Shown here one piece after another: positions 4,046 through 26,468 of a DNA stretch of 52,605 nt. Both the position numbers and the translations under genes were made by a program. Position 1 is the first letter of the stretch. Every line of letters begins with the position of its first letter. Source of the DNA: a virus; IMG/VR virus record IMGVR_UViG_3300019926_000173, positions 1 to 52,605 of that record, one strand, 5' to 3'. The notes beneath the pieces were generated by a model. It worked only from the letters and a program-made list of their open reading frames with translations, was not told the origin of the DNA and did no database searches.

Positions 4046-4068
4046 GCGACAAACGCGAAATGAGATAC

Positions 4069-6564: not shown

Positions 6565-8022
6565 TTAGCGCCTGTTCCGACGTGATCCAGGTGTGTGGTC
6601 CCGTTTGGTTCGATCCCGTTGACGAGTCGAATTCCGACGTTGCGCGCCACCGTTCGTTACAGACGTATGATTGTCACGGGATTGTCCGCCACCGAGGACC
6701 GCACGCGTCGATCCACGAGCACCACGTCCACCGTCGCCACCCATCGTGTCCGGCATTCCCATCACACAGAGCGCGAGTGCGTCAGCGTAGTCGTCGTTGC
6801 CTGAATCTGCGTGGATGGAGAGGTTCCCAGCACTTGTCGTGTTGAAGTCGATCGCATCGAGCTGCATCCGAAGCGTCTTATTCTGTGGGAGGTACAGGTC
6901 TCCGGCCTCGAGGGCAGCCTTGAGTCCCTGATAGATCGTCTGCTTCTTCTGAATAGACAGGTAGACTGCCTGGAGCTTCCGTTCGATGTTGACGTCGCGC
7001 GCAAGATCTTCGGCAGTCCCACGGCCGATCCCCGTCTCGTCGATCACAATCTGTTCGTAGTCGTATTTCCGATCGAGGGCCTTGATCCGCTCGGCTGCAT
7101 CGAGGACTCCAGCATCAGTCAACACATCTGGTTCCTTGATATTCCCATACTCGTCACCAGTGATGAGCACCGTCTCTGCCCCACCAGCAGCTGCGATGTC
7201 GACCCCAAGATAGACATCTGCGTCCGAATTCGTCTCGGGACTCCCACCCTCCATTGCCTTCTTGATAGCGCCGGATTCGAAGAACTGGGAGGCGTCTTCG
7301 ACGAACTGGCCTTTGACCTCCTGTTTGATCTGGCGCTTCGTCTTCCCGTCTTTGAACGTCTCAACGTCTTCTTCGTCGATCAGTGGGTTCTCCCAGGAGG
7401 AGATCCCGCCCTCTTCTGGGTCCCACGTCGAGTAGTAATCGTCGTCGCCGTCGGTGGCCCATTGGGTCACTTTATCGTAGAAGTAGCCACTCGTCCCAAA
7501 GGGCGTCGAGGCCAACGTCATCGACCCGTTGGTCGCGAGGATCATCGGTTCGAGGACCTCGTTGAAGATGTCCTCATTGATGAATGCTGCCTCGTCGACG
7601 ATTACATTGTCCGCTGAGAACCCACGGATCTGATTCCCGTTCCGACCGGTCGGCAGACAGTGTATCTCACTCCCGTTGTCGAATTCAATGACCGTCTGGG
7701 TGTCCCGATCGACACCCCACGTGTCGTCGTTGATCCCAGATTGGCTCATCTCCGAACGCAGTTGCTTGAATAGCAGCGATGACTGCCGAAGCGACGGGGC
7801 TGTAATCAGCGTCATCGAGTGTGGCTCGGTTAGTGCACCGTGGAGGCCGTCCCACGCACACATCCGCGTCTTCCCGATCTGACGCCCGGAGACAAGCCCA
7901 CGGAAGCGTGAATCAGTGTCGAGAAAGTCCTGCTGGTAGGAGAAGCAGCGAAGTCCTAAGACATCTGATACAAACTTAGAAGGTTTTTCGCGCAATTCCG
8001 AATAATCAGTAAGAGAGTCCAT
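6565..8022 (-). CDS. terL: Terminase large subunit
   Basis: 485 residues. Walker A is SGRQIGKT (residues 45-52), Walker B VIVDEAAF (about 140-147), and the coupling-type motif ASTPFGTSG follows. The C-terminal RNase H-like nuclease shows DVYLGVDIAAAGG, IVIDETGIG and NDDYADALAL with the expected acidic residues. The enzyme pumps DNA through the portal and cuts concatemers. The ATG at 8022 is preceded by TTTGTCGC. Its first 21 nt recur exactly at the start of a fragment at 9135, on the far side of a homing endonuclease gene, so the 5' end has been duplicated or replaced. The tail after the nuclease is basic and Arg/Ser-rich. Confidence 0.92.
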   Translation of the reverse strand: MDSLTDYSELREKPSKFVSDVLGLRCFSYQQDFLDTDSRFRGLVSGRQIGKTRMCAWDGLHGALTEPHSMTLITAPSLRQSSLLFKQLRSEMSQSGINDDTWGVDRDTQTVIEFDNGSEIHCLPTGRNGNQIRGFSADNVIVDEAAFINEDIFNEVLEPMILATNGSMTLASTPFGTSGYFYDKVTQWATDGDDDYYSTWDPEEGGISSWENPLIDEEDVETFKDGKTKRQIKQEVKGQFVEDASQFFESGAIKKAMEGGSPETNSDADVYLGVDIAAAGGAETVLITGDEYGNIKEPDVLTDAGVLDAAERIKALDRKYDYEQIVIDETGIGRGTAEDLARDVNIERKLQAVYLSIQKKQTIYQGLKAALEAGDLYLPQNKTLRMQLDAIDFNTTSAGNLSIHADSGNDDYADALALCVMGMPDTMGGDGGRGARGSTRAVLGGGQSRDNHTSVTNGGAQRRNSTRQRDRTKRDHTPGSRRNRR

Positions 8023-8027
8023 GCGAC
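8002..8027. repeat. 26-bp direct repeat, terminase-proximal copy
   Basis: The 26 bp at 8002-8027 are identical to 9115-9140. They cover codons 1-7 of the terminase, the start codon and GTCGC. The two copies bracket the homing endonuclease gene, 1113 bp apart. Confidence 0.9.
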
Positions 8028-8058
8028 AAACTGCAAATCGACAAAAAGGAAGGGACAG

Positions 8059-9018
8059 CTACGATAGGATCGGAGATCGTTGAAGATAAGACGTGGGGGG
8101 AATTCCCTCGTGATATATGTTGAAAACCGAGATAACGTTAAATCCGAGTTCGTCGTAGACTTCTAACTTTTGTTCCCGTCTTTGATCGTATTCGTTCGAG
8201 TTAGTTATTCCCCAAACTTCGATTAGATTGTCCTGGACTTTGAAGTCTGGAACGTATACTGTATTATCGATCTCTGGTTCATAGGTGTAATCAATATTAT
8301 TCTCAAATAACCAGTTTGCGACACGTAGTTCAAGAGACGACTTGACAGTCTCGCCCCGATCTGTCTCTACTTGTTGCCCCCATCCCGCTTGGTTTTTCAT
8401 TTCAACATCTAGTTCTCGAAGCCATCTACCAATTGTACTTTGACAAACGTCTACAGAGAGTTTTTGGGCTATATCTGATTCGGTCAGGCCTGATTCGTAT
8501 AGTTCAATGAGTCTACTGTTGTCGACTTTATGTTTCTTTTTCCCTCCTGTTGGCTTTGATTTGAGGCCCATTCGATCTCTCCATCGTCGAACTGTGTTGA
8601 TAGATACTCCGAGCTCGTCCGCGGTTTCTCGTGAGTTAAGTCCTTTATCTTCGTGGAGCCGTTTTAATTCTGCTTTATCGAATTTTTCGGGACCATCAAC
8701 ACCACCCGGACCACGAGTTTCTATTTCATAATGCTGCATCCACTTTTTGACGGCACTTTGAGTGACATCAAATTTGTATGCAATATCTGATTGAGACTTC
8801 TCTTTTTCAAAATAGAGTTCCCAGAGACGTTTTTCACTAACTGGTGGCCCAGTTGCATATCTCTCTTTGTCTTTGCTAATATCGTATTTATTTAGCCAGT
8901 ACTGAATTGTTGATCCACCAGAGGCACCATCAAATCGTTTAGCTATTTCTGCCCGTGTGAGATTTTGGTCTAGGTACAAGTATTCAAGAGTATCTTTGTT
9001 TTTGTAGGACCTGTCCAT
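8059..9018 (-). CDS. Homing-type endonuclease: four HTH units plus PD-(D/E)xK-like nuclease
   Basis: 319 residues. Four helix-turn-helix-like units follow one another: LTRAEIAKRF, KSQSDIAYKFDVTQSAVKKW, NSRETADELGVSINTVRRW and LTESDIAQKL. The last 95 residues resemble a very-short-patch or homing-type PD-(D/E)xK fold: SSLELRVANWL, then VYVPDFKVQDNLIEVWG; the expected Lys after the Glu is replaced by Trp. It is visibly more AT-rich than its neighbours, has its own TATA box, and is bracketed by two copies of the terminase start. Role inferred: a free-standing homing endonuclease that targeted the terminase 5' region. Catalytic activity is uncertain because of the Lys-to-Trp difference. Confidence 0.7.
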   Translation of the reverse strand: MDRSYKNKDTLEYLYLDQNLTRAEIAKRFDGASGGSTIQYWLNKYDISKDKERYATGPPVSEKRLWELYFEKEKSQSDIAYKFDVTQSAVKKWMQHYEIETRGPGGVDGPEKFDKAELKRLHEDKGLNSRETADELGVSINTVRRWRDRMGLKSKPTGGKKKHKVDNSRLIELYESGLTESDIAQKLSVDVCQSTIGRWLRELDVEMKNQAGWGQQVETDRGETVKSSLELRVANWLFENNIDYTYEPEIDNTVYVPDFKVQDNLIEVWGITNSNEYDQRREQKLEVYDELGFNVISVFNIYHEGIPPTSYLQRSPILS

Positions 9019-9037
9019 GGATTATTTAATATCTAGA

Positions 9038-9050
9038 AGTATTTAAATGT
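9038..9050 (-). promoter_or_regulatory. TATA box of the endonuclease gene
   Basis: On the minus strand ATTTAAAT is centred about 27 nt before the ATG at 9018, the spacing expected for a leaderless haloarchaeal transcript. The surrounding 40 nt are very AT-rich, unlike the flanking viral genes. Confidence 0.55.
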
Positions 9051-9135
9051 ATTCCAAGCATTCTAATCCCAATACTTCTTTGACAAATTTGGACGGATTT
9101 GCTCGGAGTTCGCTATAATCAGTAAGAGAGTCCAT
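9043..9135 (-). pseudogene. Remnant of a second terminase 5' end
   Basis: A 30-codon open frame starts at 9135 and reads MDSLTDYSELRANPSKFVKE, then VLGLECLEYI and stop. The real terminase begins MDSLTDYSELREKPSKFVSD then VLGLRCFSY. The first seven codons are identical at DNA level; after that the codons diverge, including silent changes. It is therefore an old or foreign allele of the terminase start, cut off by the inserted endonuclease gene, not a fresh duplication. Confidence 0.85.
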
Positions 9136-9140
9136 GCGAC
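9115..9140. repeat. 26-bp direct repeat, promoter-distal copy
   Basis: Identical to 8002-8027, covering the start of the terminase remnant and the upstream GTCGC motif. Together the pair delimit the endonuclease cassette. Confidence 0.9.
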
Positions 9141-9158
9141 GAATCGGGTGCGACGTAG

Positions 9159-9207
9159 CCTTATGTAGCAATAGACGATGGTACCGCGGACTATCTGCTA
9201 CATAAGG
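9159..9207. repeat. 12-25-12 inverted repeat, copy 1
   Basis: CCTTATGTAGCA (9159-9170) and TGCTACATAAGG (9196-9207) are perfect complements separated by 25 nt. The same arms with the same 25-nt spacing recur at 50316-50364, while the spacers differ. It lies just upstream of the original terminase start (9135). It could be a regulator-binding or recombination site. Confidence 0.85.
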
Positions 9208-9216
9208 GACAGTGCG

Positions 9217-9504
9217 TCAGAACACGTCGAGCGGATCGATCGACGTATCGACACCATTTAATTCCGCTTCGAGATTCCGACGAACCTCAGTTGGGCTCAA
9301 CTCTTTGATCGCAAGCTGAATCGTTGCTCGTTCGGCATCTTTGCGAGCGTATGGGTGAGATTCGTAGGCAGCCGAGTAGACCGGGACTTCATCGTGAACG
9401 ACGACAAGTGCGTTCTTGTACACGAAGACGATGATTCCATCTTTATGTGAGAGGACTGCCTGATCGGAGAACTGTATCGTGTTGAATTCTTGTGGGAAAG
9501 ACAT
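9217..9504 (-). CDS. Unknown small virion-region protein
   Basis: 95 residues, begins MSFPQEFNTIQF. The centre is beta-rich (DGIIVFVYKNALVVVHDEV) and the end is helical and charged (KDAERATIQLAIKEL). It is the last gene of the tail-fibre run before the terminase, beginning two bases after the stop of the BppU-like gene. No family recognised. Confidence 0.65.
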   Translation of the reverse strand: MSFPQEFNTIQFSDQAVLSHKDGIIVFVYKNALVVVHDEVPVYSAAYESHPYARKDAERATIQLAIKELSPTEVRRNLEAELNGVDTSIDPLDVF

Positions 9505-9506
9505 GA

Positions 9507-9869
9507 TTAGGGTAGTGCCTCGACGACTTCTATTTCAATATACGTTCGTTTCTCGTTTGCAGGAATCGTCTCATCAACGTCGAACGTATCGGCCATCGCA
9601 CCGTTGTAGTCGATTCCAAATTCGGCATGGTAAATCCCTGTTCGGGTATCATCACCCTTCTTCCACGTATAGGCGAGCATCCCCTCTTCCGGTGGATCTC
9701 GGATAATTGCAGACGAGTCAATTGTATTTTCTGTGTCATTAATATGCTTCATCTTGAACCGTGCTGCTGCACCGGTCAGATCGACTGGATCCCCCTCTTC
9801 GTCGATCACCTGAATTTCTACCGCAGGCTCGGTGTCTCCTGGTTTGAGAATTATATCTGGTTTACTCAT
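9507..9869 (-). CDS. BppU-like baseplate/tail protein with Ig-like fold
   Basis: 120 residues from the ATG at 9869. The pattern DIILKPGDTEPAVEIQVID, DPVDLTGAAARFKM, then an aromatic turn (GMLAYTWKKGDDTRTGIYHA) and EFGIDYNG is typical of the N-terminal Ig-like domain of baseplate upper proteins (BppU_N). The start is preceded by TTGTCGCAC. Likely a structural adaptor of the fibre apparatus. Confidence 0.6.
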   Translation of the reverse strand: MSKPDIILKPGDTEPAVEIQVIDEEGDPVDLTGAAARFKMKHINDTENTIDSSAIIRDPPEEGMLAYTWKKGDDTRTGIYHAEFGIDYNGAMADTFDVDETIPANEKRTYIEIEVVEALP

Positions 9870-9902
9870 GTGCGACAATACTGCAACAGCATGGACACCA
9901 AC

Positions 9903-12900
9903 TCACCAGTCTTCATCCGAAAGGATATTGATGTACTTCGGTTCCGTCGTGACCACAGTTCGATACTCATGGGACTCAATTTCGATATACTTGCGTGTGG
10001 CGTCAGTTGTCCGAACAGTCTCCCCGGCAGCCGTTTTCGTCGACGATGCTGACGTGATATGTCTGCTGTCGTATTCGGTTAGCTTCGACAGGTCGAGCGT
10101 TCTGACTCCTGGCGGGATATCCCACGACGCCGTCGAGCTCGTGGCAGACATATATTCCAAGAGTGCATCATCGATACTTTGCGAGAATCCGTGTCCGACA
10201 GGGGTGGCCTCGATCCGTATAATATTGCCCTGTGCACTGCCTGTCGTGACTGGACGGACGGAGATGGGTGTCCCAGTTTCATCGTGAACAATATCCGCAG
10301 TACTTCCGGCCGTCGTCGTTGCAGCGTTGAAGACAGACGCAATGATCTCGGTGATCGACTCGAGATCGATTGCTTCGGCAAACGGACTCGTCACATCAAC
10401 GACTGTTCCGGCGAACGACGCATCAGACTGGACACGGAGGGCAGTCGTCGCGTTAGCAGTAGCCGTTGACGTGGACGTGACGGCGACCGAGTCCGTTGTT
10501 TCCGTCCGAGGATCGTTCGTTAGTGGCGTACTCGTCGCCTGTTGTAGCTGGTCACTGGTGACGATATCAGTTGTTGCAGGATTCGTCGTTACAGTAGACT
10601 GAGTCGGGACAATCGTTGGCTCGATATCAGACGGGTGTGCATTGATTGTACTCGTACTGGCCGACGTTGCTCCGACTGTCACCGTCGTCGCCGTCTCCGG
10701 ATCTATCGTCCCACTCGAACTGACGGTGAACGTCGGCGACAGGGATGGCTGAATATGCGTCGTTGCATTATTCGCTGTCGTACGTGCCGTATTGATTGTC
10801 CCACCGCTTCCGGTTGTCGTCCCGAACGCGAGCTCGCTAAGTGCCATACTTTCTGCGAGATTCCCGTCGTTGAATCCAATAATTGGAGACGCAGTGTCGG
10901 GGATCCCCTCCGCGGATCCAATATCGACGACGGCTGTAATATGGGCTGTCGCATCCGTCGGTACTGATTCATTTGCCGTTGGATCGGCATTGAATAGTAT
11001 CTCGGTAATGGCGCCGACAGGTGACGCGGTTCCGTCTGTGCTGGGCGGGGATTCCGTCGTCGTCGTCCCACCATTTGCAGTGAACGTCGTCGCCTCGCTT
11101 GTCGTGATTGCTGGACCGGTTGCCACCGAAATTGTCGGCTGGATCGTTGCCGTTGCACTCCGTGTCTGCGTTGATGGATCAGTCGTTGTCGTCACAGGAT
11201 CTATCTGGAGCACCGACGACTGCGATATCGTCACTGGCTGACTCGTCGTTGTCGTCGTTATCGATGCATCAGAAATAGTATCCGAAGACATTGTACTGAG
11301 ACGACCAACACTGTCGAGGCGAGTCGTCGGTACTGTCGGACTGCCAGCACTTGTCTCCGGACCCGTCGCAGTGATTAGCGAAATCTTGCCGAAGGACTGA
11401 CTCGAGCTCGTCGACGTGATCGTACCGCCAGTCGCGGTTTTCGTCAGAATATTGGCTGCGGTTGCACGGATCGGAGCTGAAATTGATTCCGTCTGGTAGG
11501 CGTCATCTGTCGTCAACGTGTCTGGTGGAACAGTAGCCGTATTTGCCGTCGCAGTCTGTTGGACCGGTCCAGATACAGTCGTCGTTGTTGGGGCTACTGT
11601 CGCCGTATCCACTACTCCTGCAGATTGTACGGTTGCACTACTTGTGCTGGTCGTCACCTCGGCAGTGAATATTGTTGTGCCAGCAGTAGTCACCGATCCA
11701 GCAAACTGCGTTGCGACTGACGCGTCGGGCGTGATCGTTGCGTCTACCTCTGCGGTAGTGCTGACATCAGTCGTCACCGTAACTGGATCGATGAGAGATG
11801 CAGCGCCCGCAGTAGTCTGTACTGAGGCTGGGTCGGTAGTACTCGTTACGCCATCCCCGACCACATCTGCTCCAACTCCAAGCCCTGGCGTCCCGGTCGT
11901 CGTCGTTGTCAGACCGTTTGCACTATCGGTCGTGACTGATCCAGCAGGATTCTGTAGTGACGGTATCGAGACAGTGACAGGATTGGATTCGATGTCCGTA
12001 CTGCTCGAACTCACTGGTGCAGTGACGTGCTCGATGCCAGCAGACGCGTCTGTCCCGTTCGATGCAGTTGCCGTTACAGTCCCAGTACCAGTTACCGTCG
12101 TCCCCGGCATCGATACTGTCCCAGCACCAGCACTGGATTCAGCCGTACTCGGTGCGACTGTCGACGTCTGCGTCGTCCCAGTCGTTCCAGTCGCCGTTGC
12201 ACCGCTGGCTCGACCGGCAGTCGTGGTCGTCCCGATCGTTGGCGTTGCTGGCGTCGTCGTTCCACCACTCGGACCGGATCGGCCAACAAGACTGGCAATG
12301 CCCGGAAGTGGTGTCCCGATAGTATCTGTGGCAGACCCATCGAACGTCGAGGCGATACTGTCGGATACTGCTGCCGACGTCGCTGCTGTCGTCACAGACC
12401 CATTGATATTCGTCACAACAGGGTCGATGTCGATCGTCGACGCCGAGGCAGACTGGACGGATTGGGCTGAGACGGTAATCGTCAACCCGGTCGCCGTCGC
12501 GAACGTCGAGGTCGAGCTCGGCTTCGTGAGTCGCGCGGTCGTGTTCGTTGCAACCGATGGGGCTGACGGCAACCCCGTCGCTTGTGGGAGACTCGTCTGT
12601 ATTGCTGTTTGCGACGTCGTTGCTGTTGCGACAGTGCCTGTCCCTGTTCCAGGCGACTGAACGGGTGCCGTCGTTGCCGACGTACCTCCATTCGCAGTCC
12701 GCTGGCTCGCCGTTGCACCTGCCGTTGCATAGGAGTCAGTCGTTGCCGTCGTCGTTGCACTGCTGGTCGTGGGTCCAGTCGTCCCACTGCTGATGTCGTT
12801 CGCACTCGTCGTTGCAGTAATCGCCGAGGCTGATCCGACCTGCGTCGATGCTTGATTGTTCGAGACACCAGCTGTCGAGTCAGTAATCGGGGATGCGACA

Positions 12901-12974
12901 ACGTCGGTAGTCGACGCACTATCGGTAACTGTATCAGTATGAACGGCGCCGACGGTTGCATCAGCAGTTGGCAT
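9903..12974 (-). CDS. Giant Ser/Thr/Ala-rich virion protein
   Basis: 1023 residues, most of them Thr, Ser, Ala, Val and Gly, in irregular short repeats such as ATTTTSQP and STSTATANAT. There is no signal peptide. The first 900 residues are low complexity; only the last 130 look folded (ISVRPVTTGSAQGNIIRIEA, SWDIPPGVRTLDLSKLTEYD, ending KYINILSDEDW). The mirror-image open frame on the plus strand is its shadow. Position in the fibre cluster suggests an extended, perhaps O-glycosylated, spike or stalk with a C-terminal head or anchor. Function is inference. Confidence 0.7.
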   Translation of the reverse strand: MPTADATVGAVHTDTVTDSASTTDVVASPITDSTAGVSNNQASTQVGSASAITATTSANDISSGTTGPTTSSATTTATTDSYATAGATASQRTANGGTSATTAPVQSPGTGTGTVATATTSQTAIQTSLPQATGLPSAPSVATNTTARLTKPSSTSTFATATGLTITVSAQSVQSASASTIDIDPVVTNINGSVTTAATSAAVSDSIASTFDGSATDTIGTPLPGIASLVGRSGPSGGTTTPATPTIGTTTTAGRASGATATGTTGTTQTSTVAPSTAESSAGAGTVSMPGTTVTGTGTVTATASNGTDASAGIEHVTAPVSSSSTDIESNPVTVSIPSLQNPAGSVTTDSANGLTTTTTGTPGLGVGADVVGDGVTSTTDPASVQTTAGAASLIDPVTVTTDVSTTAEVDATITPDASVATQFAGSVTTAGTTIFTAEVTTSTSSATVQSAGVVDTATVAPTTTTVSGPVQQTATANTATVPPDTLTTDDAYQTESISAPIRATAANILTKTATGGTITSTSSSQSFGKISLITATGPETSAGSPTVPTTRLDSVGRLSTMSSDTISDASITTTTTSQPVTISQSSVLQIDPVTTTTDPSTQTRSATATIQPTISVATGPAITTSEATTFTANGGTTTTESPPSTDGTASPVGAITEILFNADPTANESVPTDATAHITAVVDIGSAEGIPDTASPIIGFNDGNLAESMALSELAFGTTTGSGGTINTARTTANNATTHIQPSLSPTFTVSSSGTIDPETATTVTVGATSASTSTINAHPSDIEPTIVPTQSTVTTNPATTDIVTSDQLQQATSTPLTNDPRTETTDSVAVTSTSTATANATTALRVQSDASFAGTVVDVTSPFAEAIDLESITEIIASVFNAATTTAGSTADIVHDETGTPISVRPVTTGSAQGNIIRIEATPVGHGFSQSIDDALLEYMSATSSTASWDIPPGVRTLDLSKLTEYDSRHITSASSTKTAAGETVRTTDATRKYIEIESHEYRTVVTTEPKYINILSDEDW

Positions 12975-26041: not shown

Positions 26042-26468
26042 GTGCGACTAATAGACGATGCGTGCGACACAGTAGAAATGATCCGCAACGCACCGAAAAC
26101 TGAATCGAAAGCGAAGAGCGGGGTGGGGTGGAAGTGACTGTGACCGCTCGTGTACCATCACAACAGCACCAATGTGGGAAGACAGTGATGCGGTGTTCTG
26201 ATTGAATGGGGCGTGCTCACCAGCCTCTGTGTCAGCGAGGGTGTGCGGTGCAAGTGGTGCCTGTTGTGATGTATCTCGATATATGTCGGCTATGCACTTA
26301 TACCTGTTGGGTACGACTATGCAATCGTGGGGCGCGATCGTGGTGGCGCCGAGGTGGTCGGGCGCAACAGAGCTGTCCAGGTTCGGCGGACCAACCGCGA
26401 AATTCTGGTGTGAGAACAGGTGGATTAAATTCGTAGGGTTCCCCCGTGTGGAGGAGCTACAAGAAGGG

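Follow-up and report, generated by a model that had tools for sequence, protein, structure and literature searches.

We analyzed a 52.6 kb viral sequence (IMG/VR virus record IMGVR_UViG_3300019926_000173, positions 1–52,605; hereafter the window), which belongs to a virus of salt-loving archaea, and identified two starts of the terminase large-subunit gene, 1,113 base pairs (bp) apart, flanking a gene for an endonuclease of 319 amino acids (aa). We interpret this locus, with a probability of about 0.8, as a free-standing homing endonuclease gene that is passed on together with the 5' end of its predicted target. A preliminary description of the window had regarded the two starts as alleles, one of them brought by the element. 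Comparison of the cultured halovirus HCTV-16 with HCTV-1 and HVTV-1, together with two further loci, L273 and L199, supported this proposal.

Two divergent terminase starts in the window

A repeat search revealed an 88-nucleotide (nt) direct repeat, 74% identical, with copies at 7943–8030 and 9056–9143 (spacing 1113). It contains an exact core of 26 bp, consisting of the 5 nt before the ATG and codons 1–7; the direct repeat of this length previously claimed to bracket the endonuclease gene was confirmed at both positions (Table 1). Homology does not stop with the 26-bp block but continues to codon 29, forming a longer segment of which the block is the beginning. The upstream copy, hereafter the remnant, encodes MDSLTDYSELRANPSKFVKEVLGLECLEY and then I*, its reading frame being closed by TAA at 9043–9045, and the intact protein starts with MDSLTDYSELREKPSKFVSDVLGLRCFSY and continues with QQDF.... 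Local protein alignment of the two flanks gave a score of 121, compared with a maximum of 45 after shuffling. Over codons 8–29, the remnant and the intact gene have 5 identical codons, 10 silent differences, and 7 protein-changing differences (40/66 nt, 61%). The earlier assignment of the remnant to a terminase N-terminus that diverges after codon 7, silent sites included, therefore stood.

An AT-rich island (GC 0.41) extends from 9127 to 7956 and covers the remnant, the endonuclease gene, and roughly the first 23 codons of the intact gene. Beyond it, the GC content steps to 0.57, with support for the border from about codon 14 to codon 40.

Joint transfer in cultured haloviruses

The terminase relatives of L273, a halovirus contig described below, include cultured haloviruses. 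TerL directly follows TerS in HCTV-1; an HNH endonuclease (gp108 in HCTV-16) lies in between in HVTV-1 and HCTV-16, and that of HVTV-1 is homologous to the L273 enzyme (38%, E = 2e-40). HCTV-16 and HCTV-1, which belong to one genus, are 96% identical in TerS nucleotides and 98% identical from TerL codon 44 to the end (438/439 aa). Over TerL codons 1–43, in comparison, their identity is 62% at the nucleotide level and 31/42 aa, and the same codon is used at only 11 of the 31 conserved residues (Fisher exact test on codon identity, first 43 codons versus the rest, p = 6e-15). The same 43 codons of HCTV-16 are 94% identical to those of HVTV-1 (40/42 aa), and the endonucleases of these two viruses share 99% of their nucleotides; elsewhere, the pair is 81% identical in TerL and 84% in TerS. 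Judged from these sequence comparisons, the endonuclease and the TerL 5' end demonstrably entered an HCTV-1-like virus as one tract and replaced its start, because the 5' block and the endonuclease match HVTV-1, and the rest of TerL matches HCTV-1.

The right border of the HCTV-16 tract is located just past the Walker A motif, where the L273 remnant also ends, and the left border seems to fall within the last TerS codons. Across HCTV-16, HCTV-1, and HVTV-1, the endonuclease and the flanking target sequence are thus inherited together, with borders near the presumed cut, as in co-conversion. The hybrid TerL of HCTV-16 works, since the cultured isolates are infectious. HCTV-5 carries a different endonuclease at the TerS/TerL position, and its comparison with HVTV-1 delimited a bounded block (66% versus 87% nt, p = 1e-4). 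That HVTV-1 and HCTV-5 are richer in homing endonucleases than HCTV-1 has been noted before (PMC3950731).

The same architecture at other loci

Flanks were compared at 83 endonuclease loci collected with the window's endonuclease and at 63 loci, mostly HNH, from viral contigs; the two sets partly overlap, and both include known positives. These comparisons replaced a first large one that was swamped by low complexity. They yielded two further clear cases of a remnant, an endonuclease, and a divergent start. L273 encodes, in order, TerS, a 43-codon terminase start, an HNH endonuclease, and an intact 488-aa terminase. Its remnant ends in the Walker A motif (GGFGGGKT) and is overlapped there by the endonuclease gene, whose stop codon is overlapped in turn by the intact terminase gene. 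Alignment of the two L273 starts over 42 codons gave 17 unchanged codons, 22 with silent differences, and 3 with replacements, and the two sequences agree at each of the first 17 bases.

A pair of neighbouring copies that share an identical 26-bp block in a single genome could also have arisen by duplication of the terminase start in place, followed by divergence and insertion of an endonuclease between the copies. We consider this very improbable: the silent sites are strongly diverged with the protein kept (22 silent to 3 replacing differences in L273), a useless copy would not stay conserved, and transfer from another virus is directly seen in HCTV-16.

L199, a haloarchaeal contig with conjugation genes, carries about 34 start codons of a VirD4/TraG-type ATPase, an endonuclease combining a helix-turn-helix (HTH) array with HNH, and the intact ATPase gene. 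In its uninterrupted relatives (Natrononativus amylolyticus, 77%; Halalkalicoccus sp., 72%), the gene start directly follows the upstream gene, which is the position of the remnant. Over the nine codons of EKFGxRIEG, a comparison of few sites, the Natrononativus gene is 85% identical in nucleotides to the L199 remnant and 74% to the intact start. Furthermore, the intact gene has a GC content of 0.46 in its first 40 codons versus 0.62 in the next 60. In sequence terms, these values weakly suggest that the intact L199 start is foreign. In the window, L273, and L199 alike, a diverged terminus stands in frame and the other terminus is displaced past the endonuclease, an arrangement of the type described for fungal mORFs (see below). 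A foreign origin of the intact start is suggested by analogy with HCTV-16 and, for L199, weakly by its own sequence.

The exact 26-bp repeat would be directly accounted for if a circular element had recombined at this block, such that the element contributed codons 8–29 of the remnant and the intact gene were native throughout. This is improbable on several counts. We found no site-specific recombinase, the endonuclease being the sole open reading frame (ORF) between the repeats. The intact start resembles the endonuclease island in composition and differs from the gene body, and the foreign part is the start of the intact gene in HCTV-16 and apparently also in L199. Additionally, L199 has no long identical block.

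Other loci in the flank comparisons were rejected or remained candidates. The flank duplications at L209, L185, L179, and L184 were of low complexity or far from the endonuclease, and L284 proved to be a tandem pair of HNH genes. In HATV-2 (L267, 1356–3606), an HNH gene lies between two SprT-type protease genes, which are whole-gene diverged paralogues and hence a different pattern. No clear flanking duplication was found at the endonucleases of HCTV-5 (gene 108), HRTV-7, PhiCh1, HCTV-16 (gp72), HRTV-27, and VAP7. Two DNA methylase loci in viral contigs are candidates only: at L305 (2313–3387), the N-terminus appears to be duplicated around an HNH gene, the second copy having an in-frame stop and low similarity; at L333 (2501–3300), the 3' end appears to be duplicated around an antisense HNH gene, the end concerned being the same as in fungal mORFs.

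The endonuclease

The window's endonuclease comprises an HTH array (about residues 1–205), in which Pfam detected several HTH domains and which is related to phage HNH nucleases (PHROGs), and a Vsr/I-Bth0305I-like nuclease domain (about residues 214–319; 8062–8379). Based on an AlphaFold2 model (pLDDT 80.7), the best VIA structural neighbour of the nuclease domain was the catalytic domain of I-Bth0305I (3r3p; Z 10.3, 90 residues, root-mean-square deviation 3.0), followed by Vsr (1cw0; Z 9.3). Foldseek also matched the model to I-Bth0305I, with a probability of 1.00 but an E value of only 0.09. The domain contains the motifs S-x2-E, PDF, and IEV(W/K)G. With respect to canonical catalytic residues (the PD-(D/E)XK lysine or EDxHD), E230, D258, and E267 are retained, but the IEVKG motif is altered. 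The Vsr-like fold fits a homing endonuclease of the I-Bth0305I/Vsr-like type, whose predicted activity is sequence-specific double-strand cleavage of alleles lacking the gene, and the earlier naming of the gene as a homing endonuclease holds at the level of this predicted fold.

The IEVKG motif of relatives reads IEVWG in the window and in L004 and L005, two phage contigs; the relatives there share the C-terminal domain and are flanked by tape-measure and tail genes. The same Vsr-like domain, with the canonical IEVKG, also occurs in haloarchaeal proteins of about 830 aa (L190, L191) found in dozens of haloarchaeal genomes; the homing branch carries IEVWG. HTH arrays of the window's kind are fused to HNH domains in haloarchaea, and the binding and cutting parts have therefore been swapped between nuclease families.

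The endonuclease gene is an ORF of its own outside any intron or intein and adjoins its presumed target gene, as expected of a free-standing homing endonuclease. The motif TTTAAATA (9047–9040), a putative promoter element, begins one base past the end of the remnant homology (codon 29, TAC), and the endonuclease ATG is at 9018. If the remnant were instead exon 1 of a split gene, spliced to downstream codon 30 as for terL in phage ICP1, the frame would pass without a break from Y29 into Q30, and there are known cases of spliced terminases that have endonucleases close by (PMC10448857). We find such splicing scarcely credible here. An Rfam search of 7800–9700 with E up to 1 matched no intron family or leader element, the downstream gene is complete with its own start, leader, and codons 1–29, and the remnants of L273 and L199 overlap or abut the endonuclease start.

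Relatives of the window and the native allele

Alignment-based scans gave terminase identities to the window of 54% for L197, 53% for L196, and 54% for a haloarchaeal provirus (G548, L155) of a class spotted through a HalX marker search. L197, L196, and L155 each have a single uninterrupted terminase start and no endonuclease like the window's. The preliminary description had expected uninterrupted relatives to resemble one of the two alleles; the single start was found, but the preference was not, since at 53–54% identity both alleles match equally. The remnant leader forms a stem-loop before GTCGC-ATG (a weak fold, z = −1.7), and the L155 leader has a perfect palindrome at that place. This parallel, together with the position of the remnant after the conserved 95-aa gene, hints that the remnant is the native allele.

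Several observations weigh against our interpretation. No close relatives of the window turned up in the collections searched, either by scanning viral and genome contigs with single proteins or by means of a degenerate pattern for the start. Over codons 8–29, the two alleles tie, with 9/9, 11/11, and 10/10 of 22 residues shared with L155, L197, and L196, respectively. The terminase starts of relatives are also lower in GC, by 0.01–0.11 (window: 0.18), and the AT-rich island is for this reason only supportive as a sign of an incoming start. HVTV-1, HCTV-16, and HCTV-5 have no remnant, which is therefore not an obligatory part of the cassette. Finally, our interpretation does not account for the block of identical bases at the start, 26 bp in the window and 17 bp in L273, next to strongly diverged sequence. 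A run of 26 identical bases has a chance of about 2e-6 at 61% identity, and the block itself is thus unexpected. In L273, the block is constrained in part by overlapping stop codons. For the window, the provirus also has GTCGC-ATG and the protein motif DSLTDY, written in other codons. Local conversion between the two start copies is a possible source of the identical block.

Proposed mechanism

Homing through a double-strand break with co-conversion, in which a cut end may have been left as a scar, agrees with the data, and site-specific integration does not. The comparison with integrases that restore tRNA genes, drawn in the preliminary description, is a loose one; the element contains no recombinase. 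The endonuclease would cut an uninterrupted terminase gene, in the window presumably near codon 29/30. A virus with the endonuclease directly upstream of a diverged terminase start would serve as the repair template, and the copied tract would consist of the endonuclease, the short leader, and donor codons 1 to about 29, in frame with the resident gene from codon 30. Codons 1–29 of the recipient would be stranded before the endonuclease as a dead remnant. Because most silent sites differ, the rebuilt gene would be cut no more and would rarely recombine with the remnant. By analogy, the window may represent an HCTV-16-like process with another nuclease family, in which the displaced start of the recipient is still kept. 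The 61% nucleotide identity with 10 silent changes, the AT-rich island, and the HCTV-16 analogy lead us to infer that intact codons 1–29 are the incoming allele.

The remnant could be the left homology arm of every homing event, or a repair scar, formed by linking the broken end to the sequence that precedes the incoming endonuclease gene. The lack of a remnant in HVTV-1, HCTV-16, and HCTV-5 would fit a scar origin or later remnant loss. With both origins, the silent divergence would let the new start evade the nuclease and avoid recombination with the old one. Taken to its conclusion, the scar model makes a self-propagating cassette unnecessary: in one-sided repair, the donor would supply the endonuclease and the new start, possibly with the whole right genome arm, and the remnant would be an unresected cut end, end-joined upstream of the endonuclease. 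We place this explanation somewhat short of even odds. The endonuclease lies cleanly between TerS and TerL in the three remnant-free viruses, which is the expected donor state, the junction is at the presumed cut site, and L273, the window, and L199 differ in detail. Conversely, a remnant kept at three independent loci would call for recurrent scars or for homology-arm use, and older insertions may have lost theirs.

A broader conjecture, which we hold only tentatively, is that natural home-and-rescue elements recur in haloarchaeal viruses and plasmids. In these elements, unrelated nucleases would carry silently diverged 5' ends of essential genes up to their own cut site, and the divergence would protect the rebuilt gene and steer the broken end to the flank or remnant, so that the cassette is kept and spread.

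Locus layout and neighbouring genes

The minus strand carries, in order, the 95-aa gene, a leader, the remnant, the endonuclease gene, a second leader, the intact terminase gene, and the portal gene (Table 1).

Table 1. Features of the terminase locus in the window.
Feature	Position	Strand	Remarks
95-aa conserved gene	9217–9504	−	Upstream of terminase; left cassette flank; shares 35% identity with its counterpart ahead of the provirus terminase
Remnant leader with stem-loop (about 9160–9206)	9136–9216	−	Probably the native terminase leader
26-bp exact repeat, remnant copy	9115–9140	−	
Remnant, displaced terminase start, codons 1–29	9049–9135	−	Homology ends after TAC codon 29
TTTAAATA	9040–9047	−	Archaeal TATA-box position for the endonuclease; putative promoter
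Endonuclease gene, 319 aa	8059–9018	−	Pfam HTH matches, L004/L005 relatives, structure model
Short leader, endonuclease stop to intact start	8023–8058	−	CTGTCCCTT and GTCGC-ATG common to the remnant leader
26-bp exact repeat, intact-start copy	8002–8027	−	
Intact gene, codons 1–29	7936–8022	−	Allele that presumably came with the endonuclease
Intact terminase large subunit, 485 aa	6565–8022	−	Pfam Terminase_6N and 6C; PHROG_2
Portal gene	6297–4069	−	

In provirus G548, a 224-aa P-loop protein (L195 13105–13779, equal to L155 492–1166) is encoded in the gap that holds the endonuclease in the window, with the homologue of the 95-aa gene on one side and the terminase gene on the other. It resembles a terminase ATPase domain and is 29% identical to the window terminase. 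The gap may be a hot spot, or the 224-aa ORF may be an older displaced piece of terminase. The sequence GTCGC occurs directly or two bases before start codons at 4046–4050, 8023–8027, 9136–9140, about 9872–9878, and about 26044–26048. It marks several late genes of the window, also precedes the L155 and L197 terminase starts, and is possibly a shared initiation or transcription-start motif. The window also encodes a 1023-aa protein consisting almost wholly of Thr, Ser, Ala, and Val (9903–12974); a comparable protein of 1833 aa is encoded in L197, just ahead of the same set of genes.

Comparison with known systems

In the fungal mitochondrial mobile ORFs (mORFs) of Allomyces macrogynus and Glomus atp6, the copies of the atp6 terminus are 63.5% identical in nucleotides and 91% in amino acids (PMC3630166). 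As in those elements, an endonuclease ORF would bring a diverged gene terminus, make a hybrid gene, and leave the native terminus behind unexpressed (PMC3630166). The mORFs concern the 3' end, mitochondria, and LAGLIDADG or GIY-YIG enzymes, whereas the present cases concern the 5' end, haloarchaeal viruses or plasmid-type DNA, and Vsr-like or HNH enzymes. The window element therefore works like an mORF element but differs from mORFs as described in that the 5' rather than the 3' end is replaced.

The free-standing T4 endonucleases (seg, mob) replace flanking recipient sequence with that of the donor, which leads to marker exclusion (PMC2988022). The window resembles such intronless homing in having a free-standing endonuclease adjoining an essential gene, a predicted cut in the recipient's neighbouring gene, and a donor flank taken up (PMC2988022). 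In T4, however, the tracts are long and variable and the cut is often far from the endonuclease; here, the tract would be the gene start up to the cut, silently diverged, and the displaced start is kept. Homing endonucleases are reported to concentrate beside phage terminase genes and to mark exchange borders, and a displaced gene-start remnant is not described in the accessible part of that report (PMC10448857). The genes in pieces of Aeh1 (nrdA/mobE) and T4 (gene 39/60, mobA) likewise have an endonuclease inside an essential phage gene (PMC2988022); both of their pieces are needed, whereas in the window the gene downstream of the endonuclease is complete and the piece ahead of it can be dispensed with. 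By analogy, the arrangement resembles engineered home-and-rescue gene drives (PMC7968924), in which a nuclease directed against an essential gene carries a recoded copy of the part it destroys. Unlike these, it is natural, has no guide RNA, and owes its recoding to natural divergence; drive activity here is putative. In the literature searched, whose coverage is incomplete and leaves novelty unproven, we found no description of a linked terminase 5'-end replacement or of a viral 5' counterpart of mORFs.

Significance

These findings suggest how an essential gene can come to harbour a selfish nuclease: the nuclease supplies the piece that it destroys, in a different spelling. The terminase is a standard marker gene for tailed viruses, and its first 30–45 codons can differ in history from the rest. 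For HCTV-1, HCTV-16, and HVTV-1, isolates are in culture and their hosts are known, which makes both homing and rescue directly measurable. The haloarchaeal elements may also provide a parallel in nature to concepts that have otherwise been examined in engineered gene drives.

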